A DNA stretch of 64,000 nt from an uncultured Sphingomonadaceae bacterium (GTDB lineage Bacteria; Pseudomonadota; Alphaproteobacteria; Sphingomonadales; Sphingomonadaceae): assembly GCA_947497315.1 (NCBI GenBank), contig CANMFX010000001.1, positions 1,054,001 to 1,118,000 on the forward strand. The letters are read 5' to 3'. Under the pieces are notes generated by a model. That model did no database searches. It was given only the letters and a program-made list of their open reading frames with translations, and was not told the DNA's origin. A program made the translations under genes and the position numbers. Shown here in pieces: positions 31,125 to 54,832 of this stretch; position 1 is the stretch's first letter; every line of letters starts with the position of its first letter.

Positions 31125-31171
31125 CCATATTGTGCTTTGTATAGCAAAAGCATCATGCAGGAGGTTTTTTA

Positions 31172-38857: not shown

Positions 38858-39802
38858 TTACCGAGCGCCTGCCATTCGGATTGCAAGAGCCGGATCGGTT
38901 GGATCGCTCCAGTCCTGCCGCGCCGCCCATTCGGCAAGTGGTGTCGGCCGGGTTTTGAAATATTTTGCTATTTCCTCCGTATCAGCGATGAGCGGTGATA
39001 CCGGCTGTTCATTGTAAAAGCTATAAAAGCTGGCCATGCCACTATAGATCGATTGGGGTTCGACAGTCGCCGATCCGGTAACCAATAAACTCATCGCGGA
39101 AGCGAATTCATCTGGCGTCATGCTTTTGAATGTGATGGGTTTCCCGGCAGCCTCGCTGAGGATCGAAGCAACCTCATCCCCAACCAGAGCTTGCGGTCCG
39201 CCAACAGCATAACGTCCACTCGGCAGATCATCATTTTGTAGCGCCTCGACCATGAAGGCAGCGACATCATCAAGGCAGATCCATGATATTTTCAGATCCG
39301 GCTTGGCGGGATAGGCAAATATCGAACTGTTGACGATGGAGGGTTTGTTCCAGCTGCGGATCATATTGTCCATGAAGACCTTGGTTTCAAAAATCGCATA
39401 GCTGACACCGCTATCGATAATCGCTTTTTCAATCGCCCGGCGGCCGTCATGCGCAGGGTTACCGTTGTCTTCTTCGGCCACATAACAGCTCGTGTTGAAC
39501 ACAATTTTTTGGACGCTGCTGGCTTTGGCTGCGGCTGCAATGTTACGACCGAGCTCGGTTGCCTTTTCAAGATCAAATACAAAGGGCAGGTGCATGGCGA
39601 TGGCATCCATGCCCTGCGCCGCTGCGATCATGGATTGCTCGTCATATAGATCGGCTTCTACAGTCTCGACATCCGCAAAGGGCGTATTGGCCAGTGCAGC
39701 TGTATTGCGCAGCGCTGCCACCGGATGCAGGCCCGCCGCAAGCAAACGTTCTAGCAAAGGATGGCCTTGGTCGCCGGTTGCGCCGATGGTCAATATTCTG
39801 AT
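38858..39802 (-). CDS. NmrA-like NAD(P)-binding protein with apparent ATC start
   Basis: Rossmann protein of about 314 residues of the NmrA/atypical-SDR group; GATGDQGHPLLERLL gives the nucleotide loop. No ATG or GTG is in frame between the upstream stop (TGA at 39818-39820) and the nucleotide-binding loop. A GAGGA site stands 7 nt before an ATC at 39802, and starting there yields a complete first strand ([M]RILTIGATG). A TTG at 39793 would cut that strand and has poor spacing. ATC initiation is therefore inferred; a sequencing error is the alternative. It is the last gene of the leftward operon after the KstD-like gene. Relatives include azoreductase-like and isoflavone-reductase-like proteins. 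Confidence 0.75.
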   Translation of the reverse strand: MRILTIGATGDQGHPLLERLLAAGLHPVAALRNTAALANTPFADVETVEADLYDEQSMIAAAQGMDAIAMHLPFVFDLEKATELGRNIAAAAKASSVQKIVFNTSCYVAEEDNGNPAHDGRRAIEKAIIDSGVSYAIFETKVFMDNMIRSWNKPSIVNSSIFAYPAKPDLKISWICLDDVAAFMVEALQNDDLPSGRYAVGGPQALVGDEVASILSEAAGKPITFKSMTPDEFASAMSLLVTGSATVEPQSIYSGMASFYSFYNEQPVSPLIADTEEIAKYFKTRPTPLAEWAARQDWSDPTDPALAIRMAGAR

Positions 39803-39837
39803 GGTTCTATCCTCTTCTCAAATTTCGTTGATTTTCT

Positions 39838-41457
39838 TTAGCTATTGATGCGCCGCGCGGCGGACCGGCCAGCGATATATCCGAAGGTCAAGGCAGGGCC
39901 GAGTGTTCCGCCTGCACCCGCATAGACCCCGCCGGTTGGACAGCTGATAACATTGCCTGCCGCGAACAGGCCTGGAATCGGCTCTCCTTGATGGTCAAGC
40001 ACCTGAGCTGAACCATCGGTTTTTGCGCCGCCATTGGTGCCGAGTGTTCCCATGCGGATTTTCACGGCATAGAATGGGCCATTGGTAACTGGTCCTAATG
40101 TCGCCGATGCGCCTTCGCGTGAACGGTCACCGTAGAAGCGGTCATAGGCGCTCTCGCCGCGGCCAAAATCTGGGTCATGACCCTTGATTGCATGAGCGTT
40201 GAAATGGGCGACCGTTTCTTCCAGCCGCTCGCCGTCAATATCTATTGCATCGCCCAGGCTTCCCAGATCATCTGCGCTGGTTATCCAGTCTGGCACTACA
40301 TCGCCAGGCATGACCGAAGCCAGCGGGTAGCGGGACATATATTGCGAGTCGAAAATCAGATAGGCGGGCAAATTGGGGTAAGAATAGGTTGCCGGATCAA
40401 ATTGGTGAAAAGCCCCGGCCAGTGCAGAATAGTTATTGGCTTCGTTGCAAAATCGCTTCCCGGCACCGTTGACCAATATAGTGTGCGGAAGCGTTCTTTC
40501 GATCAATACCGGCATGGAGCGCTGTTCGCCGCCCTCCCATTTCACCTCCGGGATTGAAAGGGTCGGTACCCACCAGGCGCTGGTCATATTGCCAAGGCTT
40601 GCTCCGGCGGCCATCGCCATTTTCAGACCATCGCCCTGGTTGCCCGGCGGCGAGGCGGGGGCATCAAGTGGACCGCGCAAAAAGGCCTGTTTCAGCTCTT
40701 CATTCCATTCAAAACCGCCGGTTGCCAGTATTACACCTTGTGATGCGTTGATGGTCAAATCGGCGTCGTTGCGGCGGACCTTGGCCCCGGCTACGCGGCC
40801 ATTTTCGACAATCAAGCGGTGGCCATCAACATCCAGCAAGGGTTCAATCCCGCGATCAAGGCAGGCCTTTAACAGGCGCCCGATCAAAGCCTGTCCCCAG
40901 CCGCGTAGATCTTCGCTTTCGCGCCGGGCCATTTCGGCTGGATCAACTTGTCCGGTGCCACCACCCAAAGGTGTTTCCCGCAGCATCATGCGCGGCGCGG
41001 GACCATGTTCAAAGACCTTGTCGGCCCAATCGCCGAGCGCGGAAAAGTCGAACAGATCATTATCGAGCGCGCGGCCGCCATCCGGTTTGGCCCCTGGCCG
41101 ATCGAGATAATAATCAGGATAACCTTCCAGCAGGCTGAGTCTCGCTGCATCCAGATTTTCGAGAAAGCCTAGCGCTTGTGGCCCCTCCTCGACAAAGGCG
41201 GACAATACGGTGTCATCTATATCACCCTGATCGAGAGAGCGGAAATAGGCGAGGGCATCTTCGCGGCTATCTTCGATACCATGCACCCGCATCTGCCGGT
41301 TACCGGGTATCCAGACAATACCGCCAGATATCGCCGCGGTGCCGCCCAATTTCGGCTGCTTTTCGATGACTGTTACGCTCGAACCGGCCTCATGCGCTGC
41401 CAGAGCAGCGCTCAGTCCAGCTGCACCGGCTCCGATGATCAGGACATCTGTGTTCAT
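39838..41457 (-). CDS. FAD-dependent dehydrogenase, KstD/fumarate-reductase flavoprotein type
   Basis: Flavoprotein of 539 residues. The dinucleotide-binding motif is VLIIGAGAAGLSAALAAHEAG (residues 5-25, split by a conserved Gly pattern). LGGTAAISGG follows, and the C-terminal GLFAAGNV...GGVYAGAGGTLGPALTFGYIAGR closes the FAD site. This pattern is shared by 3-ketosteroid delta1-dehydrogenases and fumarate-reductase-like flavoproteins. It would introduce or remove a C=C bond next to a carbonyl. It sits 97 bp downstream of the CoA-transferase gene in the leftward operon, so its substrate may be a diacid or cyclic ketone, not a steroid. Confidence 0.87.
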   Translation of the reverse strand: MNTDVLIIGAGAAGLSAALAAHEAGSSVTVIEKQPKLGGTAAISGGIVWIPGNRQMRVHGIEDSREDALAYFRSLDQGDIDDTVLSAFVEEGPQALGFLENLDAARLSLLEGYPDYYLDRPGAKPDGGRALDNDLFDFSALGDWADKVFEHGPAPRMMLRETPLGGGTGQVDPAEMARRESEDLRGWGQALIGRLLKACLDRGIEPLLDVDGHRLIVENGRVAGAKVRRNDADLTINASQGVILATGGFEWNEELKQAFLRGPLDAPASPPGNQGDGLKMAMAAGASLGNMTSAWWVPTLSIPEVKWEGGEQRSMPVLIERTLPHTILVNGAGKRFCNEANNYSALAGAFHQFDPATYSYPNLPAYLIFDSQYMSRYPLASVMPGDVVPDWITSADDLGSLGDAIDIDGERLEETVAHFNAHAIKGHDPDFGRGESAYDRFYGDRSREGASATLGPVTNGPFYAVKIRMGTLGTNGGAKTDGSAQVLDHQGEPIPGLFAAGNVISCPTGGVYAGAGGTLGPALTFGYIAGRSAARRINS

Positions 41458-41554
41458 GGCGATGACTCTCCCTTGTTGATGAACAGGATAAGGGAGATTG
41501 TTCGGGCGGGACCACTGTTACTTTTGGGCCGGCAAATATTGACCCGAGATCATG

Positions 41555-42730
41555 CTAGTCCACAGCGCCGACTTCCCGCAGAGTTTTTATTTGTTCCGGG
41601 CTCAAGCCGAGTTCCTCTAAAATCGCGTCGCTATGCTGACCGATCGTCGAGAGACTGGCGGATGCAGACGGCCGCCCCCCGTCCATTTCAATCGGCAGCG
41701 ATGGCAGCTTGGTTTGCTGGCCATTGGCTAGTGTGACGGGTTCGAGACCGCCACTGGCATTGAGATGCGGATCGTCGAACATGTCCTCAGGGCGTGCGAT
41801 TGGGGCGAAGGGCAAGCCGGTGCCCTCAAGCTTCCCGATCAACTCATCTCGGCCAAAGCCAGCGATCAATTCCCGGATTTGCGGCATGATCCGGTCGCGT
41901 GCGGCAACCCGGTTGTTATTCTCACGGATGCTTTCATCTGCCCACAGATCGTCCAGCGCAAACAGCTTACAGAATTTCTCCCATAGAGCATCGGTGACCA
42001 CACCAATGAAAATCGGCTCGTCCTTGGTCTGGAAAACATCATAAATGGCCCAGGCGGAGATGCGCGCGGGCATGGGATCTGCGGCCTTACCTGTCACGGC
42101 CATTTGCGCCATATGCTGGCCGATCAGATATACGGTGGTTTCAAAGAGCGAGCTTTGTACCTTTTGCCCTTTGCCAGTGCGGTGCCGTTCCTCAACTGCT
42201 GCCAATATTGCAATCACGCCGAACATGCCGCCTGTAACATCGATCACGCTGGAACCGGCACGCAATGGCTGTCCGGGCGGACCAGTCATATAGGCAAGTC
42301 CCCCCATCATTTGGGCCACTTCATCAAGGGCGGTTCGGTTTTCATAGGGTCCGGGGAGGAATCCTTTTTCCGAGGCGTAGATCAACCGTTCATTGGACTT
42401 GGCGAGCTCTTCATAGCCAAGCCCCAAACGATCCATTGCACCGGGGCGGTAGTTTTCAACCAATATATCTGCGCCTTCAACAAGCTGGCGCGCTATACCC
42501 AGCCCTTCAGGATCTTTCAGGTTAAGTGAGATGCTCTGCTTATGGCGGTTATACATCGGGAAGTAGCCAGAACCGGAGCCTACCAGATTGCGAGTTCTAT
42601 CGCCGCCAATCGGTTCGACACGGATCACTTCCGCGCCCAACGAGGCCAGAATGGCGCCCACCGCAGGTCCCATGACCATATGGGTGAACTCGATAACTTT
42701 CAGGCCTGCTAGAGGTGTTGGTGCGCTCAT
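41555..42730 (-). CDS. Family III CoA-transferase, CaiB/BaiF type (second copy)
   Basis: CoA-transferase of 391 residues. The catalytic aspartate is D164 in VIDVTGGMFG. The N-terminal segment GAEVIRVEPIGGDRTRN and VENYRPGAMDRLGLGYEEL are canonical for the formyl-CoA-transferase/citramalate-CoA-transferase family. Its ATG overlaps the HMG-CoA-lyase-type gene stop by 4 nt. It probably activates the hydroxy diacid made by the LeuCD-type hydro-lyase so that the lyase can cleave it. It is only distantly similar to the 31172 copy, so the two are not a recent duplication. Confidence 0.92.
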   Translation of the reverse strand: MSAPTPLAGLKVIEFTHMVMGPAVGAILASLGAEVIRVEPIGGDRTRNLVGSGSGYFPMYNRHKQSISLNLKDPEGLGIARQLVEGADILVENYRPGAMDRLGLGYEELAKSNERLIYASEKGFLPGPYENRTALDEVAQMMGGLAYMTGPPGQPLRAGSSVIDVTGGMFGVIAILAAVEERHRTGKGQKVQSSLFETTVYLIGQHMAQMAVTGKAADPMPARISAWAIYDVFQTKDEPIFIGVVTDALWEKFCKLFALDDLWADESIRENNNRVAARDRIMPQIRELIAGFGRDELIGKLEGTGLPFAPIARPEDMFDDPHLNASGGLEPVTLANGQQTKLPSLPIEMDGGRPSASASLSTIGQHSDAILEELGLSPEQIKTLREVGAVD

Positions 42731-43659
42731 GCTGCGGCCCTTTCAAATCCCAGGGGAAGACCAGCATCGGGAGTAAAGCCATAGAGCGGTTCTTCGGGCA
42801 GGGACGCTGCAATAATTTCCCTGACTTTCAGCAGCTTATCCAGATCAATGCCCGTATCAATACCCATAGCCTCCAGCATGAAAACCAGGTCTTCCGTAAC
42901 GATATTGCCTGAGGCACCCGGTGCGAAGGGGCAGCCGCCCAAGCCGCCCAGCGAAGCATCAAAGGTGGTAATACCTTCCGCCAATCCTGCCATGACATTG
43001 GCCAAGCCAAGTCCGCGGGTATTGTGGAGATGCAGCGTGTTGAGCTTGTCGCTGCCGATCACACCCTTGATCTGGCGAACCATCCGTGTGACTTGCGCCG
43101 GATTGGCATAGCCGGTTGTGTCTGACAGGCCGACCTCGGCCACACCGGCCTCCATCGCCGCTTCTGCGAGGCGCGCGACCTGGTCTTCGCTGACGGGCCC
43201 CTCGATGGTGCAACCAAATGCAGTAGAGAGACCTACTTCAAAATGGGGACGCTGTCCTTCGGGCTGCGCAACCACCAGATCGGCAATCGCTTTGATTTCG
43301 GCGAGCATAGCCGGATGATCCTTGCGCACGTTCTTGATGCTATGGGTTTCGGACATCGAGAAAGGGATCGACATTTTGTCGACGCCAGCAGCAATGGCTC
43401 TCTCTGCGCCTTTCAGATTTGGTATGAGTGTGACGACATCCAGATTGGGCAGTGTCTTTGCATAGGCTACAATTTCCGCAGTATCCGCCATTTGCGGCAG
43501 CAGGGCTGGCGGTACAAAGCTTCCTACTTCAATCTCGCTTACACCGGCCTCGACCTCGGCCTTGATCCAAGCCTTTTTGGCTTCGGTCGGCATCACGGCA
43601 TCAATGCTTTGCAGGCCGTCGCGTGGTCCCACTTCGCTGATCGTTACAGACTTTGTCAT
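42727..43659 (-). CDS. HMG-CoA lyase family enzyme (second copy)
   Basis: TIM-barrel lyase of 310 residues with SEVGPRDGLQS near the start, HLHNTRG supplying the metal histidines, and GGLGGCPFAPGASGN with the catalytic Cys. The start at 43659 follows TAGGAG and overlaps the LeuD-type stop by 4 nt. In this operon order (LeuC, LeuD, lyase, CoA-transferase) it most likely cleaves a 3-hydroxy diacyl-CoA such as a citramalyl-CoA analogue. HMG-CoA itself is less likely. This is inference from context. Confidence 0.9.
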   Translation of the reverse strand: MTKSVTISEVGPRDGLQSIDAVMPTEAKKAWIKAEVEAGVSEIEVGSFVPPALLPQMADTAEIVAYAKTLPNLDVVTLIPNLKGAERAIAAGVDKMSIPFSMSETHSIKNVRKDHPAMLAEIKAIADLVVAQPEGQRPHFEVGLSTAFGCTIEGPVSEDQVARLAEAAMEAGVAEVGLSDTTGYANPAQVTRMVRQIKGVIGSDKLNTLHLHNTRGLGLANVMAGLAEGITTFDASLGGLGGCPFAPGASGNIVTEDLVFMLEAMGIDTGIDLDKLLKVREIIAASLPEEPLYGFTPDAGLPLGFERAAA

Positions 43660-44273
43660 TGATTGGCTCCTAGGTAAATCCATGGCCGCTTTGCGCGGTC
43701 GGCCGCTTGCCACGCGGCAATGTCTTCGGCCATTTTCAAACTGAGGTCGATAGCATCCAATCCCTCCAGCAACATCGCTTTGGCTTCATCATCAATCGGG
43801 AAGGGCCAGCTCTGGTCTTCGCCAATGCTGATTTTTTGTGCGGCCAAGTTGATGGTAATAGGACAATTCGCTTCTTCGATGATGGTTATCGCATTGGCAT
43901 CCATGACGGCCGGCAAGATACCGTTACGAACGCAATTACCGGCAAAAATCGGGGCGAAGCTCGGGGCAATGACGGCCCGGAAACCATATTCGGCCAATGC
44001 CCAAACAGCATGCTCGCGGCTCGACCCGCAACCGAAATTCGCACCGCCCAGGATGATCTGGCTGTCGGCATAACAAGGATCGTTGAGTACAAAACTTGGA
44101 TCAGGATCGCGGCCACCGATCGCGGTATAACGCCATCCGGCGAATAGCCCGTCAGCAAGTCCGGTCTTGCCAGTGCTTTTCATCTCGCGTGAGGGGATGA
44201 TCTGGTCCGTATCGACATTATCGCGGATCAAAGGCATGGGCCGGGAGGTGAGCATGGAAATTGGTTCCGCCAT
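43656..44273 (-). CDS. LeuD-type hydro-lyase small subunit
   Basis: Swivelling-domain subunit of 205 residues of the isopropylmalate isomerase type: DNVDTDQIIPSR near residue 20, GGANFGCGSSREHAVWAL near residue 77 (the signature loop), and NCVRNGILP. The start could be ATG 44273 or a GTG one codon earlier; either overlaps the LeuC-type stop. Placed among an HMG-CoA-lyase-type enzyme, a CoA-transferase and amidases, with no leuA or leuB nearby. It probably forms a catabolic hydro-lyase such as an alkylmaleate or citraconate hydratase, not the leucine enzyme. Confidence 0.87.
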   Translation of the reverse strand: MAEPISMLTSRPMPLIRDNVDTDQIIPSREMKSTGKTGLADGLFAGWRYTAIGGRDPDPSFVLNDPCYADSQIILGGANFGCGSSREHAVWALAEYGFRAVIAPSFAPIFAGNCVRNGILPAVMDANAITIIEEANCPITINLAAQKISIGEDQSWPFPIDDEAKAMLLEGLDAIDLSLKMAEDIAAWQAADRAKRPWIYLGANQ

Positions 44274-45676
44274 CACAGCAACTCCCGGACATCGGCAATG
44301 GCACCTGCCAGCGCGCTAGCGACAACCGTTTCGGGACTGGCAATATGGGTTTTGACGCCCGGTCCCTGACGGCTTTCAAAATTACGGTTGGTGGTAGAGA
44401 TAACCCGCGCGCCTGATTGAAAACTCTCACCTCCTGCATAGAAGCACATCGAACAGCCACTTTCCCGCCATTCAAACCCGGCTTCGCGAAAAATTGCATC
44501 AATCCCTTCTGCTTCAGCTTCGCGTTTGACGCGGGAGGAGCCGGGGACACAAATGGCTTGGACATGGCCAGCAATTTTCTTGCCCTTCAGTAGGGCGCTG
44601 GCCTGGCGCAGGTCAGACAAGCGGCTATTGGTGCAGCTACCTATGAAAGCGGCATCTATCGGCGTTCCCTTAAGGCTCTGTCCTTTTTGCAATGCCATAT
44701 ATTCGAGCGGGCGCTCACCCGCAGTTTCGGGTACGGTGCCGCCAATACCAACACTATGTTCCGGACTGGTACCCCAACTGACCGTCGGTGTAATCGCGCT
44801 GGCATCTATTTTAATTTCAGCATCAAAAGTAGCATCTACATCGCTGATCAGCTTTTCCCAGCTTTCAACGGCTTGGTCCCACTCAACTCCTTTGGGCGCA
44901 TAACGGCGACCCTTCAGATATTTGAAAGTCTTCCGATCAGGAGCGATAAACCCGGACATGGCGGAAAACTCCGTCGCCATGTTGCAAAGGGTCATCCGCC
45001 CTTCCATGTCGAGCGCGCGAACCGCATCTCCGGAAAATTCCACCGCGTGACCCTTGCCACCGGCCGCGCCATGGCTGGCGATCAGCGTCATGATCATGTC
45101 CTTGGGCGTGACGCCGTTTGGTAACGACCCGGAAAAACATACCCGCATGGATTTTGGCTTGTTCAGCCGCAATGTTCCCGTCGCCATCGCATGTTCCGCC
45201 TCAGATGATCCGATGCCCCAGGCTAGTGCGCCAAAAGCGCCCTGTGTGCAGGTATGGCTGTCGGGTGCCACCAAGGTACATCCAGGTAACACGATACCCA
45301 GTTCAGGCGATATCACATGGACAATTCCCTGGTCGGGATCGTTGACATCAAACAGGGTTATGCCAGCGGCTTTGGTAGCGGCCCTCGTTTCGGTGATGAA
45401 AGCCTGTCCGCCGGGCATCAAGGTCTGGTCCGTTCGACCTGGCCGGGTGTCAACAATATGGTCTGTGACCGCAAAGACGCGTGCGGGATCGACCACTGCT
45501 CGTCCGGCCTTCGCCAACGAATTGAGCGCGGACGCACCGGTGCGTTCGTGCAGAAAAACACGGTCGATCGCCACAAGTGCGCCACTGCCGGGCAAGGCGG
45601 CGACCACATGGCTATCCCATAACTTGTCAAAGAGCGTTGATGGTTCAGGCAGAAACAGCCCCCATTTCCGTATCAA
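44273..45676 (-). CDS. LeuC-type hydro-lyase large subunit
   Basis: Aconitase-family subunit of about 467 residues. [4Fe-4S] ligands are C348 (GSCTNS), C408 and C411 (GCSMC). LVAPDSHTCTQGAFGALAWGIG is standard. The stretch after the cluster cysteines (CFYAGGESFQSGAR, then STTNRNFESRQG) departs from the usual leucine-enzyme form, hinting at another substrate, for example dimethylmaleate- or citraconate-type hydration. No in-frame ATG or GTG precedes the domain; the start is a TTG at 45676 that overlaps the lipocalin-like gene by 32 nt. A downstream CTG is the alternative. Confidence 0.87.
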   Translation of the reverse strand: MIRKWGLFLPEPSTLFDKLWDSHVVAALPGSGALVAIDRVFLHERTGASALNSLAKAGRAVVDPARVFAVTDHIVDTRPGRTDQTLMPGGQAFITETRAATKAAGITLFDVNDPDQGIVHVISPELGIVLPGCTLVAPDSHTCTQGAFGALAWGIGSSEAEHAMATGTLRLNKPKSMRVCFSGSLPNGVTPKDMIMTLIASHGAAGGKGHAVEFSGDAVRALDMEGRMTLCNMATEFSAMSGFIAPDRKTFKYLKGRRYAPKGVEWDQAVESWEKLISDVDATFDAEIKIDASAITPTVSWGTSPEHSVGIGGTVPETAGERPLEYMALQKGQSLKGTPIDAAFIGSCTNSRLSDLRQASALLKGKKIAGHVQAICVPGSSRVKREAEAEGIDAIFREAGFEWRESGCSMCFYAGGESFQSGARVISTTNRNFESRQGPGVKTHIASPETVVASALAGAIADVRELL

Positions 45677-46145: not shown

Positions 46146-47524
46146 TAATCTTCCTTTTGTCTTGATTGGAGGGCGATATGATACTGTCTGGCACTGTGGC
46201 CGTTGATCAGAGCAAGATGCTCTGCGGCCAGATTCCCGGGTTCTAGATGCTTTTCGTCGAAAGCAAGGGCGTGATCTGCATCGACCGTGTACCAGGGTGC
46301 AAACATATGACGGGCGCGAACAATCTGCCAAGCCATGTTAAGATAATTACCAAAACGGTCGGGCGACAAATCCGGATAGAGTTGATCTGGTTCACCATCA
46401 GGCAGGGATGGATAGACGGTTGTTCCAGTGTCGAGCGCATCAGCAATAGCATTTATAACATCCTGCCACGGAGCCCAGCTTACAGGGGCTTTGTCGGCCC
46501 AATTGTCCGATAGGCCATGACCGGGCAGATCAATGGCGATCTGCCCGTCGGGTTGATTGCCGGTTACGGCATAGGCCGGCGCATGAAGAGCAAGTCTATC
46601 TGCGCCCCGATCGCCTCGCCAATGGATTAGGCCGCGAAAATCATCTGTTCGAATTTCCACAAAACCTTCATCACCGGCATCGGGTAGATTGTCGATTGTC
46701 ACCGTCTCCGTGGCCAGCAAATGGGACAGGCTGACCGCCTGATGTTCCTCTGGCGTTGTCACTTTTTGTGCGGTCCAAGTGGCAGGCATGTGACCCAACC
46801 GGTCAATATGCTCTTGCAGCGGATCGCCATCATAAGCGCTGATCAGGCAGGGTGGGACATTTGCATCCACAGCCGGAATGTCACGCGGCGCGCGCAGCAC
46901 GGCACCATAGCCTGCCTGATAGGCATTGCCGGCATCGAGCATTTCGCGAACAATCGCATCCACCCGTGCGGGGTCATCATTGGCAACCGATAGCCGGTGC
47001 GCATCATCGGTTGCAAACCATGGGAAGAACCAGCTTTGTTCCAAAATCCGGTTCCATAACCACGTCAGATGTTCGCCATAGTCGGAGGGATGAAATTCCG
47101 GCAAATAGCGATCGCTAAAAAGCGCCATTTCCTCCGCTGACCAGATCGCATAGCCCCCGACGGCCAATGTTGTGATTCGCGTCGGATGGCGTTTGACCGC
47201 CGTGACCAAAATGATTCCACCGGAATGAAAGCCATAGGCGGCGCATCTTTGGATACCCAGTGCATCAAGAAATTCGATAGCCGCGTCCGCATATTCGGCG
47301 ATTTCGGGATGGTCTGGCAGTGGATCAGACTGCCCAAAACCCGGCGTATCTGGCGCGATACATGTGAAATGCTCCGACCATTTTTTCATCAACGCTTCAT
47401 ATTCTTTGGAGCTGCGCGGGCTCTGATGCACCAGCAGCAGCGGCGGGCCTTTGCCCGCCTTGCGATAATGGACGCGGCGTCTGTTGCTGCCGCTTGAAAC
47501 ATCGATAAAGTGTCGTGTGATCAT
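46145..47524 (-). CDS. Alpha/beta hydrolase with a second degenerate hydrolase-like half
   Basis: Protein of 459 residues. The N-terminal ~265 residues form an alpha/beta hydrolase: PLLLVHQSPRSS oxyanion region, APDTPGFGQSD (58-67), nucleophile elbow G98-F-H-S101-G-G, acid in DGDP near residue 232, and His in EEHQA near 261. The elbow differs from GxSxG because the Gly at S-2 is Phe99. The C-terminal ~190 residues contain another DLPGHGLSD (332-340) but no nucleophile elbow, so this half looks like a partial, probably non-catalytic repeat. First gene of the leftward operon, 10 bp from the TTGTCnnGACAA palindromes. Ester or C-C hydrolysis is possible. Confidence 0.75.
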   Translation of the reverse strand: MITRHFIDVSSGSNRRRVHYRKAGKGPPLLLVHQSPRSSKEYEALMKKWSEHFTCIAPDTPGFGQSDPLPDHPEIAEYADAAIEFLDALGIQRCAAYGFHSGGIILVTAVKRHPTRITTLAVGGYAIWSAEEMALFSDRYLPEFHPSDYGEHLTWLWNRILEQSWFFPWFATDDAHRLSVANDDPARVDAIVREMLDAGNAYQAGYGAVLRAPRDIPAVDANVPPCLISAYDGDPLQEHIDRLGHMPATWTAQKVTTPEEHQAVSLSHLLATETVTIDNLPDAGDEGFVEIRTDDFRGLIHWRGDRGADRLALHAPAYAVTGNQPDGQIAIDLPGHGLSDNWADKAPVSWAPWQDVINAIADALDTGTTVYPSLPDGEPDQLYPDLSPDRFGNYLNMAWQIVRARHMFAPWYTVDADHALAFDEKHLEPGNLAAEHLALINGHSARQYHIALQSRQKED

Positions 47525-47534
47525 AAGAACCTTT

Positions 47535-47550
47535 ATTTGTCCGGACAAAT
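47535..47550. promoter_or_regulatory. TTGTCnnGACAA operator, site 1a (perfect palindrome)
   Basis: ATTTGTCCGGACAAAT, a perfect 16-bp palindrome, lies in the 89-bp divergent gap between the alpha/beta hydrolase and isochorismatase-fold genes, 10 bp before the hydrolase start. The same core recurs at 54780, 61247 and 63708, always upstream of pathway genes. The GT-N4-AC arrangement resembles FCD-type GntR operators. The cognate regulator is not identified. Confidence 0.8.
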
Positions 47551-47562
47551 TTGTCTCGACAA
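47551..47562. promoter_or_regulatory. TTGTCnnGACAA operator, site 1b
   Basis: TTGTCTCGACAA follows site 1a directly, differing from it only in the two central bases that are not conserved between sites. Its centre is 14 bp from that of site 1a, which would allow two dimers to bind cooperatively and control both divergent operons. Confidence 0.65.
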
Positions 47563-47613
47563 GTCTTTTTTGCAGATTATTGTCTTTTTATCGAATCCGG
47601 AGAGAAAAACCCA

Positions 47614-48294
47614 ATGACATTGATTGGCACGAAAATGGTCCAGGATGGCCGTACTGCGCGCGAGATTTTTGAAGAAGTGATCGGCAATCCCGCTCGAAAG
47701 AAATTTGGTTTTGGTGAAAAACTCGCCATCGTCAATGTCGATGTGCAGCAAGCCTACACGCGGACCGATATGTTCAAGACGGCTTATGAGACTGATCCGA
47801 AGCAGATCGACTTAATTAATAAGATTTCGGCTTTAGCGCGGGCTAAAGCCATGCCGGTCATCTGGAGCCGGGTTGCATATAAGGACGACGCCGGGGATGC
47901 CGGAGTCTGGGGCACTCGAACCGATACCGAAGATTCGCTGCAGAATATCAAATATGACAGCGAGCGCCATTTGCTGGATCCGCGCTGTGATGTGGATGCC
48001 GATGATCTGCAATACACCAAACGTATGCCGAGCGCCTTTTTCGAAACGCCGCTGGCGAGCTATCTAACATGGCACAAAGTCGATACGGTGGTGGTGACCG
48101 GCGGCTCTACATCTGGCTGTGTGCGTGCCACAGCGGTAGATGCGCTAAGTCACGGATATCGTACGATCGTTCCGATCGAAACCTGCGCCGATAAGCATGA
48201 AAGCTATCATTTTGCCAACCTGACCGACTTGCAGTTGAAATATGCAGATGTCGAACCGGTGCAGGCTGTGATTGACTGGCTGGAGGCGCGCTAG
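47614..48294 (+). CDS. Isochorismatase-fold amidohydrolase (NicF / N-carbamoylsarcosine amidase type)
   Basis: Cysteine hydrolase of 226 residues. The catalytic triad is visible: D43 (VNVDVQQAYT), K136 (TKRMPSAFF) and C169 (GGSTSGCVRATAVDA). The family includes maleamate amidohydrolase (NicF), N-carbamoylsarcosine amidase and nicotinamidase. The long N-terminal part, the GCVRATAVDA form and VWG segment favour the NicF/carbamoylsarcosine branch. The ATG at 47614 follows GGAGAG. It opens the rightward operon with two PuuE-type hydrolases, so removal of ammonia from a half-amide is the favoured inference. Confidence 0.85.
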   Translation: MTLIGTKMVQDGRTAREIFEEVIGNPARKKFGFGEKLAIVNVDVQQAYTRTDMFKTAYETDPKQIDLINKISALARAKAMPVIWSRVAYKDDAGDAGVWGTRTDTEDSLQNIKYDSERHLLDPRCDVDADDLQYTKRMPSAFFETPLASYLTWHKVDTVVVTGGSTSGCVRATAVDALSHGYRTIVPIETCADKHESYHFANLTDLQLKYADVEPVQAVIDWLEAR

Positions 48295-49187
48295 TGTCTG
48301 AAGCACAAAAAACCGATCCCGGATTATATGATTATCTGCCTTATCGCAGTCGTCCGAAAATCGAATGGCCGGAGGGCAAGACCTGCGCGGTATGGATAGC
48401 GCCCAATCTGGAATTTTATGAACTGGACCCTGCGGTAAATCCCCATCGCAAAAGCTGGCCAAAGCCGCATCCCGATGTGGTCGGGTACAGCCACCGTGAT
48501 CACGCAAATCGAGTGTCGCACTGGCGCATGGCGGAAATGATGACCAAGCATGGCTTCCCGGGTTCGGTAAGTCTGTCGGTGGCTTTATGTGATCATATTC
48601 CCGAAGTAGTGGAAGATGCCAACCAGCGTGGTTGGGAATTTTTCAGCCATGGCATTTACAATACCCGCTATTCTTATGGCATGGATGAAGCACAGGAACG
48701 CGCGATTATCGAGGACTCGATTGCTACTGTGGAGCGCGCCACGGGTCAAAGGATCAAAGGCTGGCTGGCTCCCGCGCTGACCCATACACCGCGCACGCTG
48801 GATCTGCTCGCGGAATATGGCATGGATTATACCTGCGATCTTTATCATGATGATCAGCCGACGGATGTGAAGGTGAAGTCGGGGCAGCTAACAGCAATAC
48901 CTTATAGCCTTGAGGTCAATGATCATTACGGCTTCTTCATCTATAACATGTCGCCGCGGGAATATGCAGATACACTGATCCGGCAATATGACCGGCTGGC
49001 GGAAGAAGGAGGGCAATCGGGAACGGTGATGTGCATTCCGTTGCATAGTTATTTAATTGGCCAGCCCCACCGGATTGGTCCGTTTGAGGCAGTGCTCGAA
49101 CATATTGCCGCTGATGGCCGGGCATGGATCACCAAGGCTGGTGATATTGTTGACGCTTTCCGGAAACAGACGGGAGGCGCATCATGA
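48294..49187 (+). CDS. PuuE-type polysaccharide-deacetylase-fold hydrolase (copy 1)
   Basis: NodB-fold protein of 297 residues starting at a GTG in TAGTG. It belongs with PuuE-like members (metal-light allantoinase and cyclic imide hydrolase) and not with chitin or xylan deacetylases. It lacks a signal peptide and the usual TFDDG metal motif, reading WIAPNLEFYEL in that position, with EFFSHGIYNTRYSYGMDEAQE in place of the HxxxH region. LAPALTHTPRTLDLLAEYGMDYTCDLYHDDQP is characteristic. It probably hydrolyses a cyclic amide or imide in the cytosol, possibly as a heteromer with the next gene product. Confidence 0.78.
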   Translation: MSEAQKTDPGLYDYLPYRSRPKIEWPEGKTCAVWIAPNLEFYELDPAVNPHRKSWPKPHPDVVGYSHRDHANRVSHWRMAEMMTKHGFPGSVSLSVALCDHIPEVVEDANQRGWEFFSHGIYNTRYSYGMDEAQERAIIEDSIATVERATGQRIKGWLAPALTHTPRTLDLLAEYGMDYTCDLYHDDQPTDVKVKSGQLTAIPYSLEVNDHYGFFIYNMSPREYADTLIRQYDRLAEEGGQSGTVMCIPLHSYLIGQPHRIGPFEAVLEHIAADGRAWITKAGDIVDAFRKQTGGAS

Positions 49188-50107
49188 GCCTTGATCCTGC
49201 CTATCTTGAATATCCCAAACGTGATCGCGGGATGGACCATGAACATTATCCCTATAGCAGCTTGTTTGATCGCAAGCCGTTGGAGTGGTCTGACGGCAAA
49301 AAGCTACTCATCTGGCCGGTGATCAGCCTCGAATATTTCCCGATGGTGCCCAATGACGACCCATTTCGCGCGCCCGGTCATATGCAGACCGCCTATCCCG
49401 ATTATCGTCACTATACCGCGCGCGAATATGGCACAAGGATCGGCGTTTACCGACTGCTGGGTGCGTTTGAGAAGGTGGGGGCAAAAGTCTCGGTAGCGAC
49501 TAACAGCGTGATTGCCGAACGCTATCCGCAGTTGGTTGAGGACATAGTCTCCGCTGGCCACGAAATCATCGCGCATAGCACAGACATGAACGGTACGATT
49601 GCGAGCGGAATGGCCGAGAGTGATGAGAAGGCGCTGATCGAAGGCTCGCTTACCTCACTGCAAAAAACCACAGGAATCCGCCCGCGTGGTTGGCTGTCAA
49701 TCGCGCGTTCGCAAAGCTTCAACACCGCAAAGCTCCTTGCCGATGCGGGCGTTGATTATATGTGCGACTGGGTGAACGATGAATTGCCTTATACGTTTCA
49801 GACTGACGCGGGTGCGATCATCAATATACCCCTTAATCATGAGCTGTCTGATCGCCAGATTATCAACGTTCAGCAGCAATCGGTCGATAGCTATGCCCAG
49901 CAGATGACCGATGCGGCTGACTGGTTGCTGGCGGAGGCCGGGCAACATGGTGGCCGGATGCTGCCGATGCATTTGACGCCCTATATCATGGGACTACCTT
50001 ATCGGATCAGCGGTTTTGAGAAACTGATTGCTGGCTTTGCGGAGCGTGATGATGTCGGGTTTGCAAGAGGTGAGACGATACTCGACAGCTGGAAGGCACA
50101 GCAATGA
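49184..50107 (+). CDS. PuuE-type polysaccharide-deacetylase-fold hydrolase (copy 2)
   Basis: Paralog of the preceding protein, 307 residues. Matching stretches are LLIWPVISLEYF, HYTAREYGTRIGVYRLLGAFEKVGAKVS, HEIIAHSTDMNGTIASGMAESDEKALIE, and AGVDYMCDWVNDELPY. The SHG motif of copy 1 is AHS here. Sequence drift between the two is large, so they may have separate substrates or form a two-subunit enzyme. Start and stop both overlap neighbouring genes by 4 nt. No signal peptide. Confidence 0.77.
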   Translation: MSLDPAYLEYPKRDRGMDHEHYPYSSLFDRKPLEWSDGKKLLIWPVISLEYFPMVPNDDPFRAPGHMQTAYPDYRHYTAREYGTRIGVYRLLGAFEKVGAKVSVATNSVIAERYPQLVEDIVSAGHEIIAHSTDMNGTIASGMAESDEKALIEGSLTSLQKTTGIRPRGWLSIARSQSFNTAKLLADAGVDYMCDWVNDELPYTFQTDAGAIINIPLNHELSDRQIINVQQQSVDSYAQQMTDAADWLLAEAGQHGGRMLPMHLTPYIMGLPYRISGFEKLIAGFAERDDVGFARGETILDSWKAQQ

Positions 50108-51525
50108 AGATACGCAATCCGCGCACGGGCAAAGCAGACCACGAGATCGCACCATTGAACTGTAAGGCGTTGATGGAAGAGGTGAACCGATTGCGCGATG
50201 CGCAGGTTGCCTGGGCCGCTAAAACAGCTGATGAACGCGGTGCGATATTGCTGCAATGGGCAGATGCGATAGAAGCTGACCTCGGTGCCATTATCCCGGC
50301 GCTTACAGACGATACGGGACGTGGGGGTATCTCCAAGATCGAAGCAGCGGGTGTACCGGGCCAGATTAGGCGTTGGGCTCAGATGGCGCCTCAGCTTATT
50401 GCCGAGGGGCAGTTGGCCGGTCAATCAACCTCGGTACCCACAATCACCACTTCGACACGCTTGGTACCCTATCAACTCGTTGGCGTTATCAGTCCATGGA
50501 ACTTCCCGATGACGCTCGCGCTGATTGACGCCATTCCGGCGCTGATGGCGGGATCGGCTGCTTTGATCAAACCGTCGGAAGTCACGCCACGATTCATCAA
50601 ACCCTTGATGGAAACCGTCCGGAAAATCCCGGAGCTGGCTGAGGTGCTGTCTATCATCGAAGGCGATGGTGCGACCGGGGCAGCGATGGTTGATCAGGTT
50701 GATTACATCTGTTTCACCGGATCGGTAGCCACCGGACGTAAGGTTGGCGAGGCGGCCGCGGAGGCGTTTATTCCGGCTAGTCTGGAATTGGGCGGGAAGG
50801 ACCCGATGATCGTGCTGGCCAGTGCGAATCCGGAAGCAGCGGCGGCGACGGCGCTGAGGGCCAGTATCGTCAACACGGGGCAGGCCTGTCAGTCGATTGA
50901 GCGGGTCTATGTAGCGCGAGAGATTGCCGTGCCGTTCCTGGAGCAACTAACCGCTCAGGCGGAGGCGGTGGAACTGAATTATCCTGATATCAACCAGGGA
51001 CATATCGGTCCGTTTATCTTTGAAAAACAAGCGAAAATTGCGCAGAGTCAGATTGATGATGCTGTCCAAAAAGGCGCGAAACTGATCACCGGCGGTACGG
51101 TCGAAAATCTCGGCGGCGGGCTCTATCTCAGGCCCACGGTTCTCACCGATGTCCCGCCGGATGCCGACATCATGCGCGAAGAAAATTTCGGTCCCGTTAT
51201 TCCGGTGATCGTTTATGATCAGATTGAACAGGCGATTGCGCAGGCGAATGACAGTATCTTCGGACTGTCTGCTGCCGTTATTGGCGGATCAGTGGCGGAG
51301 GCAGAACAGATAGCTGTGCGTCTGAAAGCGGGGGCAGTGTCGATCAATGACGGCTCGCTGACCTCGATGGTCTGGGAAGCGGAAAAGTCGAGCTTCGGCT
51401 ATTCCGGGCTCGGCGCTTCACGAATGGGCACGAGCGGACTGATGCGTTTTTTCCGCAAACAGGTGTTGATCCGGCAATCGGGCGACGCGGCGCGAATAGA
51501 GGCTTTTGCAGAGGAGAATTTCTGA
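50104..51525 (+). CDS. NAD(P)-dependent aldehyde dehydrogenase
   Basis: ALDH-superfamily enzyme of 473 residues oxidising an aldehyde to the acid. Landmarks are SPWNFPMTLALIDAIPALMAGSAALIKPSE (cofactor and catalytic Asn), FTGSVATGRKV, the general base Glu in LELGGKDP (near residue 222), and the nucleophile Cys in NTGQACQSIERVYV (near residue 261). It closes with the usual RQSG-type tail region. Embedded in the rightward operon by 4-nt (50104) and 1-nt (51525) overlaps. With the alcohol dehydrogenase downstream it could convert a hydroxymethyl group to a carboxylate. Confidence 0.92.
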   Translation: MKIRNPRTGKADHEIAPLNCKALMEEVNRLRDAQVAWAAKTADERGAILLQWADAIEADLGAIIPALTDDTGRGGISKIEAAGVPGQIRRWAQMAPQLIAEGQLAGQSTSVPTITTSTRLVPYQLVGVISPWNFPMTLALIDAIPALMAGSAALIKPSEVTPRFIKPLMETVRKIPELAEVLSIIEGDGATGAAMVDQVDYICFTGSVATGRKVGEAAAEAFIPASLELGGKDPMIVLASANPEAAAATALRASIVNTGQACQSIERVYVAREIAVPFLEQLTAQAEAVELNYPDINQGHIGPFIFEKQAKIAQSQIDDAVQKGAKLITGGTVENLGGGLYLRPTVLTDVPPDADIMREENFGPVIPVIVYDQIEQAIAQANDSIFGLSAAVIGGSVAEAEQIAVRLKAGAVSINDGSLTSMVWEAEKSSFGYSGLGASRMGTSGLMRFFRKQVLIRQSGDAARIEAFAEENF

Positions 51526-52712
51526 TGGGCGTGGAATTGCAACATCCGATGAAACCGGAACTGACGGCGGAGGAAGCCGCGCGCGGGCGCTTTGTGTCCG
51601 GCATCCGGGCGTTCATTCTCAACGATCTCGCCGGTGATTTGCGCTTGGCCTATGACAAGCGCGCAGCCCCTGCCTTTGCCCGGGAGAACGGCCGCGCTCC
51701 GGAAACCAGCAACGAAGCGCATCAGGCGCTGCGCGGTGATCCGGCGTTTAATAGCTATTCGGCGATGCGGGTGCAGGCGCAAAAAATGGTCTGGCAGGCA
51801 TCGGGCGCTGTCGTCGCGCGTGATCTAGAACGGCTGGAGGCGGAAGCGGCGAAAGTTGCCGATGCGCCCGGCTCTGTAAACCTCGACCCCGATCTTGACA
51901 TTCCGCGCAATGTCGATGCGATTGAAGTGCACCTGATGCCCGGCAGCTATACGCGCGGCGGGGAGTCGCTGGAAGCCGGTGCGGTCTATGATCAGGGGCT
52001 GGCGGTATTTTCCATGGGCCTGATGGGCGCCAATCTCGATGATATAGGCCTGTCCATGGCCGCTTATGTGAAAGGCAAGTTCCCAGACTTTCAGCCGCAG
52101 AATATTCTCGATACAGGCTGCACCATCGGTCACAATACCCTGCCGTGGAAACAAACCTATCCCGATGCCAAGGTCGAAGCGATTGACGCCGCGGCTGGCG
52201 GCTTGCGCTATGCGTCGGCCCGCGCAAAAATGCAGGGGCAGGAGGTTGATTTTGCGCAAATGTCCGCAGATGCGCTGGATTATCCCGACGCCAGTTTCGA
52301 CCTCGTCTTTTCCTCGATGTTCCTGCATGAGCTATCAAAAAAGGCGCGCGCGGCGGCGTTCAAGGAAGCCTATCGGGTGCTGAAACCCGGCGGGTTGCTT
52401 TTACACATGGAATTGCCGCCCAATGACCAGATGAATGCCTTTGACGGCTTTTATCTCGACTGGGACAGCTGGTATAACTCAGAACCTTTCTACAAAGGCT
52501 ATCGCGACGAAAGCCCGCCGGAACTGTGCAAGGCCGGCGGCTTTGATGCAGATGATTATTTCCAGTTTGTCGTGCCCAGCATTGGCATCTACGGTGAGGA
52601 AGCCGTGGCGCAGGCGATTGCGGATGAGAATGCTAATGCGGTCGATAGCGAAACCACCGGGCGGCTGGCCGAAGGTATCATGTGGTTCGGTTTCGGCGCG
52701 TGGAAAAGATGA
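51525..52712 (+). CDS. Class I methyltransferase-fold protein with N-terminal extension (copy 1)
   Basis: Protein of 395 residues. The C-terminal half is a SAM-methyltransferase fold: ILDTGCTIGHN (194-204) as motif I, VEAIDAAAG as motif II, DLVFSSMFLHELS, and VLKPGGLLLHME. The N-terminal ~190 residues are a separate extension with LAYDKRAAPAF (41-51) and HLMPGSY (136-142). These landmarks, and the overall order, are shared with the protein at 55968-57224. The substrate is unknown; no quinone- or steroid-methylase signature is evident. It overlaps the next gene (small protein) by 4 nt. Methylation, or a SAM-independent reaction on the same fold, are both possible. Confidence 0.78.
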   Translation: MGVELQHPMKPELTAEEAARGRFVSGIRAFILNDLAGDLRLAYDKRAAPAFARENGRAPETSNEAHQALRGDPAFNSYSAMRVQAQKMVWQASGAVVARDLERLEAEAAKVADAPGSVNLDPDLDIPRNVDAIEVHLMPGSYTRGGESLEAGAVYDQGLAVFSMGLMGANLDDIGLSMAAYVKGKFPDFQPQNILDTGCTIGHNTLPWKQTYPDAKVEAIDAAAGGLRYASARAKMQGQEVDFAQMSADALDYPDASFDLVFSSMFLHELSKKARAAAFKEAYRVLKPGGLLLHMELPPNDQMNAFDGFYLDWDSWYNSEPFYKGYRDESPPELCKAGGFDADDYFQFVVPSIGIYGEEAVAQAIADENANAVDSETTGRLAEGIMWFGFGAWKR

Positions 52713-52990
52713 GTTCTCAAACCGACAACCCCGGTCCGGTGTTCAAACCCGACGACACACCAAAAGATATTTATGGTCCGGACGGTAAACCACAATTTTT
52801 CGACGATCCCGGCATGGATCGTTTTGTCGCTGTCGTGATGAATATGGCGCAGGAAATGTGGGTACAGGAAGAAAGACTGATGGCGCTCGAAGGGCTGGAA
52901 GCCTCTGAAACGGACCGCGAGGCGAAGCTGAAAGCGTTTATCGACCGCATTTTTGCACCGCTGCGCGAACAAGGGAGTGACGACATATGA
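52709..52990 (+). CDS. Small protein paired with the methyltransferase (copy 1)
   Basis: Soluble acidic protein of 93 residues with no recognised domain. After a Pro/Asp-rich start it has QFFDDPGMDRFVAVVMNMAQ, then a long helix-forming segment (EEERLMALEG-type EERLMALEGLEASETDREAK). It resembles the small protein at 55609-55971, which also directly follows a methyltransferase gene of the same family. Overlaps on both sides by 4 nt indicate tight coupling. Most likely a dedicated subunit or chaperone of the methyltransferase-fold protein. Confidence 0.7.
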   Translation: MSSQTDNPGPVFKPDDTPKDIYGPDGKPQFFDDPGMDRFVAVVMNMAQEMWVQEERLMALEGLEASETDREAKLKAFIDRIFAPLREQGSDDI

Positions 52991-54006
52991 AGGCATGGCA
53001 AATCGGATCCAAGATCGGCATTGGCGGACTGCAGCTGGCTGACCATCCCGAACCGGAACCAGGCCCTGATGAAATAGTGGTCAAGGTTTCGGCGGCGGGT
53101 CTCAACTATCGCGATTTGATGGTGTTGCGCGGCGACTATGGCACGGATTTGCCCGAAGATCGCGTGCCTCTATCTGACGGCGTTGGCGTGATCGAAGCCG
53201 TTGGCGCTGAAGTTACAGGACTGGAAGTGGGTACCCGCGTGATGGCCCCGCATTTTGCCACTTGGCTCGATGGTGCCTACAGCTTTGCCGTCTTTGCCAG
53301 AGACCTTGGTGTTACAGCCAATGGCTGGCTGGCCGAGAAAATCACCCTTCCCGCAAATGCCGCCGTCATGGTGCCTGAAAATGTGAGCGACAATAGTGCG
53401 GCTACTTTTTCGGTCGTTGGCAGCACGGTCTGGCATGCGATGATGGCCTTTGGTGATGCGAAGCCGGGTGATCTTGTACTCGCACAGGGAACCGGCGGCG
53501 TGTCCATATTTGCGCTACAGCTGGCCAAGGCCATGGGTATGGATTTCGCGATCACCTCATCGAGTGACGAAAAACTCGCGCGCGCCAAGAAAATGGGAGC
53601 GGATTACGGCATCAACTATAGCGACCGGCCGGATTGGGGAACCGCTTTGCTGGAAGCCACGGACGGCCGAGGGGCAGATGTGGTTGTTGATACATTGGGT
53701 TTTCCGGCGATGGGTGAAACTGTGGTAGCATGCGCTGTGAATGCGCGCATCGGATCTTTGGGCGCGCTTTCCGGAACGCCGCAGGATCAATCCAGCGCCA
53801 GCCAGGGTGCGCTGATCGGCAAGAATATAGCGATCAAGGGTATCGCGTCCGGCAATCGTGCAATGTTGCAGCAAGCGCTGGATGTGGTTGCGCAAAATGA
53901 TATCGAGCTGCTGGTCGAAAGCGTTTTCGACTTTAGCGATGCGCCTGCAGCTTTCACGCATCTGGAAAGCGGCAGCCATATGGGCAAGGTGATGGTTACC
54001 GTTTGA
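52987..54006 (+). CDS. Zinc-free MDR family alcohol dehydrogenase/quinone oxidoreductase
   Basis: Medium-chain dehydrogenase of 339 residues with the GroES-like N-terminal domain (NYRDLMVLRGDYG near residue 38, LSDGVGVIEAVG) and the Rossmann nucleotide-binding region LVLAQGTGGVSIFALQLAKAMG (near residue 165; AQGTGGVS replaces the usual GxGxxG). The usual catalytic zinc Cys/His are replaced (Asn36-Tyr instead of Cys-His), as in quinone oxidoreductase or alkenal reductase members. Last gene of the rightward operon, overlapping the small-protein gene by 4 nt and the convergent gene at 53996 by 11 bp. Confidence 0.85.
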   Translation: MKAWQIGSKIGIGGLQLADHPEPEPGPDEIVVKVSAAGLNYRDLMVLRGDYGTDLPEDRVPLSDGVGVIEAVGAEVTGLEVGTRVMAPHFATWLDGAYSFAVFARDLGVTANGWLAEKITLPANAAVMVPENVSDNSAATFSVVGSTVWHAMMAFGDAKPGDLVLAQGTGGVSIFALQLAKAMGMDFAITSSSDEKLARAKKMGADYGINYSDRPDWGTALLEATDGRGADVVVDTLGFPAMGETVVACAVNARIGSLGALSGTPQDQSSASQGALIGKNIAIKGIASGNRAMLQQALDVVAQNDIELLVESVFDFSDAPAAFTHLESGSHMGKVMVTV

Positions 54007-54724: not shown

Positions 54725-54776
54725 CCCATTCTCCTTGTCTTTCTTCATGCCAGTGCATTTTTCTCTTGCCAAGAGG

Positions 54777-54794
54777 AATTTGTCCGGACAAATT
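54777..54794. promoter_or_regulatory. TTGTCnnGACAA operator, site 2 (18-bp perfect palindrome)
   Basis: AATTTGTCCGGACAAATT is a perfect 18-bp palindrome in the 108-bp divergent gap between the DUF3108-like gene and the membrane-protein gene. Its centre lies about 48 bp from the membrane-protein start and about 61 bp from the other. The core is identical to site 1a. Confidence 0.8.
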
Positions 54795-54832
54795 GCAAAT
54801 AGCTATTTACACGGTCTGGGAGGACGTTGGTA

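Follow-up and report, generated by a model that had tools for sequence, protein, structure and literature searches.

Why should a pair of ring hydrolases and an amidase be encoded back to back with a LeuCD-type hydro-lyase, a CoA-transferase and a C-C lyase? The question is raised by two divergent operons in the window analysed here, a stretch of 64,000 nucleotides (C1:1054001-1118000) of the 3.4-Mb genome of an uncultured Sphingomonadaceae bacterium (G000). One side, on the plus strand, starts with what we call the trio, an isochorismatase-fold hydrolase and two PuuE-like hydrolases; the other, on the minus strand, carries LeuC, LeuD, an HMG-CoA-lyase-like enzyme and the CoA-transferase. This gene neighbourhood goes beyond chance and is one conserved co-occurring unit. 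We think it somewhat likelier than otherwise that the operons are a catabolic divergon at the centre of a likely regulon some 49 kb in length, which would open a ring, release ammonia, hydrate the resulting acid, form its CoA ester and cleave a C-C bond. We infer the individual reactions, the substrate and a regulator binding the palindrome described below from the genes and their neighbourhoods. The core features are as follows, in window positions.

47614-48294, plus strand: isochorismatase-fold amidohydrolase, likely a half-amide or carbamoyl hydrolase (PF00857)
48294-49187, plus strand: PuuE-like ring hydrolase 1, PuuE1 (PF01522)
49184-50107, plus strand: PuuE-like protein 2, PuuE2, the diverged partner (PF01522)
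47537-47548 and 47551-47562, shared gap of the divergent operons: tandem copies of the palindrome TTGTCNNGACAA, likely operator
46145-47524, minus strand: alpha/beta hydrolase (PF00561), start chosen inside the longer frame 46145-47548
45645-46145, minus strand: lipocalin-fold protein by predicted structure; the longer frame is without Pfam match
44273-45676, minus strand: LeuC-type hydro-lyase large subunit (PF00330), longest frame, true start probably downstream
43656-44276, minus strand: LeuD-type small subunit with loop IIPSRE (PF00694)
42727-43713, minus strand: HMG-CoA-lyase-like C-C lyase, HMGL (PF00682, PRK05692)
41555-42730, minus strand: family III CoA-transferase, CoAT (PF02515)

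Conservation of the divergent gene set

Pfam and NCBIfam searches together with reading of the frames located every gene of the original prediction where it had been placed. The shared promoter region that it had assumed corresponds to a gap of 89 bases, if the named ATGs (47524 and 47614) are the starts, and the gap holds two palindromes. Most neighbouring genes share a few bases at their ends or are almost contiguous, in an operon-like manner. The lipocalin and the tandem palindrome had been missed, as had a FAD enzyme, an aldehyde dehydrogenase and a methyltransferase that flank the core.

Of 196 genomes of the order, 29 match PuuE2 at 1e-60. PuuE1 adjoins it in every one of the 29 short loci and the isochorismatase-fold gene in 27, and the 20-kb stretches round 20 of the matches hold LeuCD, HMGL and CoAT in two arrangements, some of them incomplete. 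CoAT occurs in 28 of the 29 PuuE2 genomes vs 10 of the 167 others (28/1/10/157; Fisher 2e-24), and core LeuC in 27 of 29 vs 9 of 167 (27/2/9/158; Fisher 3e-23), both values ignoring phylogeny; either gene lies within 20 kb of PuuE2 in 21 of the 29. From named genomes, mostly Sphingomonadales together with Steroidobacter relatives, we took the best 80 of 562 loci, and in the 60 of these longer than 18 kb we counted PuuE1 60 times, PuuE2 60, the isochorismatase-fold gene 58, HMGL 51 and LeuC, LeuD and CoAT 48 each, again in two gene orders. The 134 loci assembled in all (20 from the order genomes, 80 named, 5 from plasmids and 29 more) gave 115 distinct ones after 17 under 15 kb and 2 caught by other filters were dropped. 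The trio is present in 104 of them, accompanied by a LeuCD-type pair in 76, by a C-C lyase route in 77 and by both in 73. The prediction that these genes belong together is borne out by this linkage and by the distribution of CoAT and core LeuC.

The proposed tail and its exchangeable lyase

In the route that we favour, the PuuE-like pair would hydrolyse an amide bond in the ring of a cyclic imide, or in a similar five- or six-membered ring, and the isochorismatase-fold enzyme would hydrolyse the half-amide to ammonia and a cis-butenedioate of the alkylmaleate type. LeuCD would then hydrate the alkylmaleate to an alkylmalate, the family III CoA-transferase would form its CoA ester, and the HMGL-type lyase would cleave the alkylmalyl ester to an acyl-CoA and a 2-oxo acid.

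The original prediction had reckoned itself in danger if the genome held no other leuCD, and another is there. Matches to PF00330 in the genome comprise the window LeuC, a LeuC at C1:1238495 before a LeuD, an aconitase-family frame of 897 aa at 924018 and a weak partial match. Because of this other pair, the window LeuCD is most likely not a leucine enzyme, judging from sequence, and rather a paralogue beside another leuCD. The two LeuC proteins are 47% identical, and that of the window scores 518.9 with TIGR00170, below the cut-off of 560.25. LeuD exceeds the cut-off of TIGR00171 (174.2 vs 116.25), though its loop differs: IIPSRE is found in 83 of 85 LeuD proteins of at least 40% identity and an ordinary-type loop in none of the 85, and the genome's other LeuD has IISAKW. 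Across the 196 genomes of the order, matches to the window LeuC fall into two score groups: 35 genomes reach 578 bits or more (at least 58% identity), joined by G113 with a fragment at 61%, and the second group reaches at most 492 bits among the matches listed. HMGL exceeds the cut-off of PRK05692, the HMG-CoA lyase model (281.4 vs 246). This score and that of LeuD could suggest that LeuCD and HMGL simply serve leucine metabolism, with the hydrolases as unrelated neighbours, a reading we find extremely improbable in view of the co-occurrence of the tail with PuuE2; as for LeuCD itself, the second leuCD, the LeuC score and the changed LeuD loop made us reject the leucine enzyme as its identity. 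The LeuD loop has a lysine where homoaconitase has an arginine; we weighed this as a pointer to a tricarboxylate substrate and set it aside as uninformative, ordinary LeuD having lysine there too.

The three motifs of HMGL, the catalytic motifs of the HMG-CoA lyase family, are present in 83, 84 and 82 of 87 sequences. CoAT scores 349.9 with PF02515 (cut-off 23.3) and has SUGCT and formyl-CoA transferase among its solved relatives. Motif counts from strict patterns (CTNSR of LeuC in 65 of 94, the CoAT Asp in 77 of 86, the PuuE2 motifs in 100 and 78 of 131, and likewise lower counts for the isochorismatase-fold and PuuE1 motifs) reflect the strictness of the patterns or partial frames and were not used.

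In distant genomes the tail can change. On plasmid p1 of Burkholderia plantarii the trio is accompanied by a different LeuCD lineage (LeuC 35% identical to that of the window), a FAD-dependent oxidoreductase and an ICL/PEPM-type lyase, and no HMGL is annotated in the trio stretch. The same combination, or parts of it, recurs in L146, L149, L151, L152, L156, L165 and other loci, and plasmid pJE1 of Sphingomonas sp. JE1 and a Sphingobium plasmid carry both tails together. In distant proteobacteria an unrelated ICL/PEPM lyase stands in for HMGL and CoAT, and it resembles the petal death protein more than methylisocitrate lyase. The petal death protein is the second-best solved relative of the p1 lyase, ahead of the methylisocitrate lyases. 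The Arg after CGH, present in the three methylisocitrate lyases compared, is absent from 24 of the 25 lyase homologues of the loci, ten of which have N[ML]VEGG, cf. NMIEGG of the petal death protein, and 14 of which fit neither second pattern. On these patterns methylisocitrate lyase was rejected as the identity of the replacing lyases, save in L168, whose lyase has both CGHR and NLTEFG and seems to be a genuine methylisocitrate lyase. Alkylmalates are the compounds cleaved by petal death protein and by dimethylmalate lyase. That unrelated lyases and different LeuCD lineages have been recruited to one trio is our best argument that the acid between trio and lyase would be a substituted maleate, hydrated to a substituted malate. 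The replacement also backs, at the level of sequence, the predicted order of amidase, LeuCD and C-C cleavage.

The front of the route may be exchangeable as well. Ten genomes with CoAT and without PuuE2 at the search threshold, and two more with core LeuC, hold weak PuuE1 matches in 4 of the 12 (best 110.7 bits), and no PuuE1 match of the orthologue type was found in these 12. G057, G109 and G111 (L217, L218, L220) each have an isochorismatase-fold homologue (37-38%) no further than about 10 kb from CoAT and LeuCD, in G057 and G109 with HMGL nearby too; in G098 such a homologue lies 6 kb from CoAT. A CN-hydrolase relative is found in L216 and L217, and an amidohydrolase relative in L216, L217, L219 and L220. 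From this lineage lacking the PuuE pair it would follow that amidase, LeuCD and lyase can be combined with a different ring opener.

The trio and the ring it would open

In the amidase D64, K157 and C190 are invariant in all 17 aligned orthologues. We take Asp-Lys-Cys to be the catalytic triad of isochorismatase-fold amidases, including the maleamate amidohydrolase NicF, and by this mark the protein would qualify as NicF-type. H119 and H251 of PuuE1 are invariant in 19 of 19 sequences, and the His of the last PuuE1 motif is replaced in PuuE2 by T265, which at least 90% of 19 sequences share; since PuuE2 has lost this His, the two may work as a heteromer. Both pass the cut-off of PF01522, placing them in the PuuE/polysaccharide-deacetylase-like superfamily, and PuuE structures are among their best solved relatives. 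With TIGR03212, the equivalog-domain model of PuuE allantoinase, PuuE1 scores 107.7 bits, below the cut-off of 424.6; the profile of PuuE2 finds the uncharacterised chain 1z7a first and PuuE next.

A number of observations weigh against the proposed route. In seventeen of the 115 loci the trio comes without any of the tails looked for, though a more distant tail would be missed. The Fisher values take no account of descent, G091 has PuuE2 without CoAT or core LeuC and G002 without core LeuC, and CoAT and core LeuC exist in the ten and nine genomes without PuuE2 counted above. The palindrome is found in only 34 of the 80 named loci, in 32 of them just upstream of the isochorismatase-fold gene, so that relatives with the other gene order are mostly without it, and G105 has 42 copies genome-wide vs 3-14 in the eight other genomes counted. 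The best solved relative of the amidase is N-carbamoylsarcosine amidohydrolase, at 129.4 bits vs 92.6 for 3ot4/3uao, which we take to be NicF. The PuuE1 profile is nearest to PuuE allantoinase, at 125.9 bits vs 52.4 for 3qbu. An Asp/Glu racemase of pJE1 resembles hydantoin and allantoin racemases, and a ureidoglycolate-lyase family gene occurs in three loci, both hints of a ureide. HxnM, a known cyclic imidase, has 3qbu as a relative (PMC9304392). With the profiles of both PuuE1 and PuuE2, 3qbu scores far below PuuE, by which the pair is nearer to allantoinase PuuE than to the CIH/HxnM branch, with 3qbu serving as a stand-in for CIH sequences. For the predicted opening of a cyclic imide the superfamily fits while the imidase branch is the more distant one, and the predicted NicF-type amidase keeps its invariant triad, with a carbamoyl hydrolase as the nearer relative. 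A hydantoin or a six-membered imide is a possible ring type.

Let us suppose, then, that the ring is a hydantoin or other ureide: the PuuE pair would be a hydantoinase, the amidase an N-carbamoyl amidohydrolase, and the LeuCD tail would degrade a dicarboxylate from another branch of the regulon. The nearest solved relatives just named, the racemase-like gene of pJE1, the ureidoglycolate-lyase family neighbours and a HyuA-like gene nearby would all suit such a scheme. It would need an enzyme leading from a carbamoyl amino acid to a cis-butenedioate, and among the labelled recurring genes there is no PLP enzyme or ammonia-lyase for this; in addition, LeuCD and the lyases are in conserved linkage with the trio. 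We consider this route fairly unlikely. The pJE1 racemase had been a candidate maleate isomerase and was dropped, the four solved relatives found for it being hydantoin or allantoin racemases. A further family, present in five loci, resembles an Asp/Glu racemase by reading only.

If the ring were six-membered, a pyridine-derived glutaconimide (citrazinate-like) might give an aconitamide-like half-amide and then an aconitate analogue. In Thioclava and Terrarubrum, relatives of the isochorismatase-fold enzyme (51-58%) are clustered with an HpaB-type monooxygenase, a flavin reductase and amidases (L144, L145), and the PuuE-related HxnM opens a piperidinedione (PMC9304392). An HpaB-like gene (query from L145) had no match in any of the 134 trio loci, and the Arg missing from 24 of the 25 ICL/PEPM lyases is one that we would presume, as our own expectation, to be needed for a tricarboxylate. 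We regard this version as improbable and suspect that the Thioclava and Terrarubrum clusters are likely another ring-nitrogen breakdown pathway.

Returning to the alkylmaleate route, its parts have counterparts in known systems. The tail of the aerobic nicotinate pathway consists of NicD, NicF and maleate isomerase. It shares with the window an alpha/beta hydrolase and an isochorismatase-fold amidase leading from half-amide to maleate, but it isomerises, whereas the window has PuuE-like proteins, LeuCD and CoA-dependent cleavage. Eubacterium barkeri has a LeuCD-type dimethylmaleate hydratase and an ICL/PEPM dimethylmalate lyase, a combination shared, by description, with the distant proteobacterial trio loci; the window instead uses CoA-transferase and HMGL. 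Chloroflexus has an R-citramalate CoA-transferase of family III and an HMGL-type R-citramalyl-CoA lyase, again alike by description, but the window pair is tied to an amide-hydrolysing trio. The fungal HxnM and HxnN likewise join a PuuE-superfamily cyclic imidase to an amidase, but HxnM is related to 3qbu whereas the window pair is nearer PuuE, and the part of PMC9304392 available to us describes no LeuCD/lyase tail. In line with the original prediction, searches of the open-access literature gave no description of the gene set as one pathway; the enzymes are ordinary, and their combination is well supported.

If the proposed route is right, it would offer a genetic handle on bacterial breakdown of those ring-nitrogen compounds that yield a branched maleate on ring opening. 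The route would have at least two exchangeable endings, HMGL with CoA-transferase and the ICL/PEPM lyase, and perhaps a third, RipBC-like one. For many Sphingomonadales, and for some proteobacteria besides, families annotated as leucine biosynthesis, polysaccharide deacetylase and isochorismatase would become a pathway that can be tested.

The likely regulon and its other genes

The gap between the divergent operons holds TTGTCCGGACAA and TTGTCTCGACAA, and two further copies of the palindrome lie in the window.

54780-54791: TTGTCNNGACAA copy between 53996-54772 (minus) and 54827-55525 (plus)
63708-63719: TTGTCNNGACAA copy upstream of 61355-63655 (minus), a TonB-receptor-like frame by reading, with a 39% match to other such loci

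These four exact matches compare with 0.03 expected, and the genome has 14 vs 1 for the reversed control, ten of them in C1:1101537-1150592; two of the other four sites are inside long frames. Among 225 loci 46 have the palindrome, 41 of these just upstream of the isochorismatase-fold gene. Clusters are also found in relatives: 7 of 7 copies in 47 kb in G136 and, in G189, all 6 listed copies out of 7 in 44 kb, and round the core 8 of 11 in 51 kb in G128 and 5 of 9 in 32 kb in G184; G149, G121 and G155 have 5, 10 and 3 in total. The palindrome likely marks, on this sequence evidence, a regulon of about 49 kb (C1:1101537-1150592) that extends 32 kb beyond the window, and the conserved gene set is probably jointly controlled. 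Its genes, perhaps even the substrate, might then be found by induction.

Beyond the window the stretch encodes a LysR regulator, a DUF1838 protein, a CitE-type lyase, a MaoC protein matching PF19315 (mesaconyl-CoA hydratase), two CaiB and two MmgE/PrpD proteins, a PaaK-type ligase, an amidase and PuuE3 (247.2 bits with TIGR03212, cut-off 424.6). It also has ECH and VOC frames, more alpha/beta and CN hydrolases, an amine oxidase and a TonB receptor, the ECH frames and Tat-type leaders there being identified by reading only. The LysR frame, near one palindrome, had no match in the stretches of twelve relatives. CitE adjoins a palindrome in G136, G189, G128 and G184, followed by CaiB and mostly MaoC, with PrpD and amidase or PaaK genes near CitE in three of the four; some of these genes also accompany the trio in the distant loci L147, L148 and L168 and in few other loci. 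Among NCBIfam models, CitE is matched best by RipC and MaoC by RipB, two proteins of itaconate degradation (RipABC), yet both fall below the cut-offs (227 of 375 for NF038242, 242.1 of 340 for NF038241), and the CaiB pair is far below all cut-offs. From this branch we infer that the likely regulon may handle more than one branched dicarboxylate.

The remaining genes next to the core, and companions further along, are:

50104-51525, plus strand: aldehyde dehydrogenase family protein (PF00171), in 24 of the 60 long loci
51525-52712, plus strand: SAM-methyltransferase-like protein MT1 (PF13649), in 10 of 60
52682-52990, plus strand: small protein adjoining MT1
52987-54006, plus strand: zinc-type alcohol dehydrogenase family protein (PF00107)
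39838-41457, minus strand: FAD_binding_2 dehydrogenase by family match, in 6 of 60
38858-39793, minus strand: NmrA-type protein, in 6 of 60
55609-55971, minus strand: small protein (small2), in 33 of 60
55968-57224, minus strand: MT2, in 25 of 60
57221-58375, minus strand: CN-hydrolase, in 21 of 60
26234-32353: HyuB-like, HyuA-like and HMGL2 (minus strand) with a divergent CoAT2, a second ring-opening and lyase module

In this second module HMGL2 and CoAT2 were identified by Pfam, and HyuA and HyuB by reading and by an annotated hydantoinase/oxoprolinase homologue in L139. HyuA is present in 22 of the 29 PuuE2 genomes vs 41 of the 167 others, at 20 kb or less from PuuE2 in 10, at 21-46 kb in 4 and on other contigs in 8, and the module is also near the core on an Acidiphilium plasmid.

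The lipocalin-fold protein was modelled with a pLDDT of 90.1, and the fold was compared with Foldseek and VIA-align. Its best matches are BFA1 and DUF3598, followed, among others and tied, by spirocyclases, by nitrobindin and by CpeS, an S-type phycobiliprotein lyase. Sharing a fold with CpeS fits, as far as a model goes, the suggestion that the substrate comes from tetrapyrroles, and gives no function. In such a scheme the regulon would mineralise linear tetrapyrroles, or the products of their oxidation (bilins, chlorophyll catabolites, substituted maleimides): pigment would enter via TonB receptors and be held by the lipocalin, and an exported flavin oxidase, an esterase and CN-hydrolases would trim it. 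Several parallel modules, the PuuE trio with LeuCD/HMGL, HyuAB with HMGL2/CoAT2, and PuuE3/amidase with the RipBC-like enzymes, would then turn differently substituted pyrrole rings into 2-oxo acids and acyl-CoAs. The tetrapyrrole suggestion of the original prediction gains indirect hints from the lipocalin and the parallel ring-opening modules; we consider it a long shot. If true, bacteria would have a complete route that carries the rings of tetrapyrroles into central metabolism, and the fate of tetrapyrrole maleimides would be one directly testable case. The hydrolase at L227:11601-12461 has plant pheophorbidase among its relatives, not as the best.

Several smaller observations concern the same neighbourhoods. 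VOC1, a recurring neighbour, was considered as a classical extradiol dioxygenase and rejected because no His is among the columns conserved at 85% in 28 sequences. Flavocytochrome-c-like FAD enzymes, others than 39838-41457, adjoin LeuCD in L139 and L142. A membrane-like protein family without Pfam match (54827-55525; L226:3476-4162) adjoins palindromes and some trio loci, the L226 copy lying by a palindrome with one mismatch, and a DUF1838 protein (L226:4222-5154), with relatives near 10 of 144 loci, also adjoins a palindrome. Frames of the window at 8798-11523, 7686-8294 and 24362-25324 resemble, by reading only, a molybdenum hydroxylase with its FeS subunit as well as MobA-like and XdhC-like proteins. 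Two pairs (55609-57224 and 51525-52990) each combine a SAM-methyltransferase-like protein having a helical N-terminal part with a small protein of 100-120 aa; MT2 has the fold of ordinary SAM-methyltransferases, and MT2-like proteins are also found near trio loci of distant taxa.

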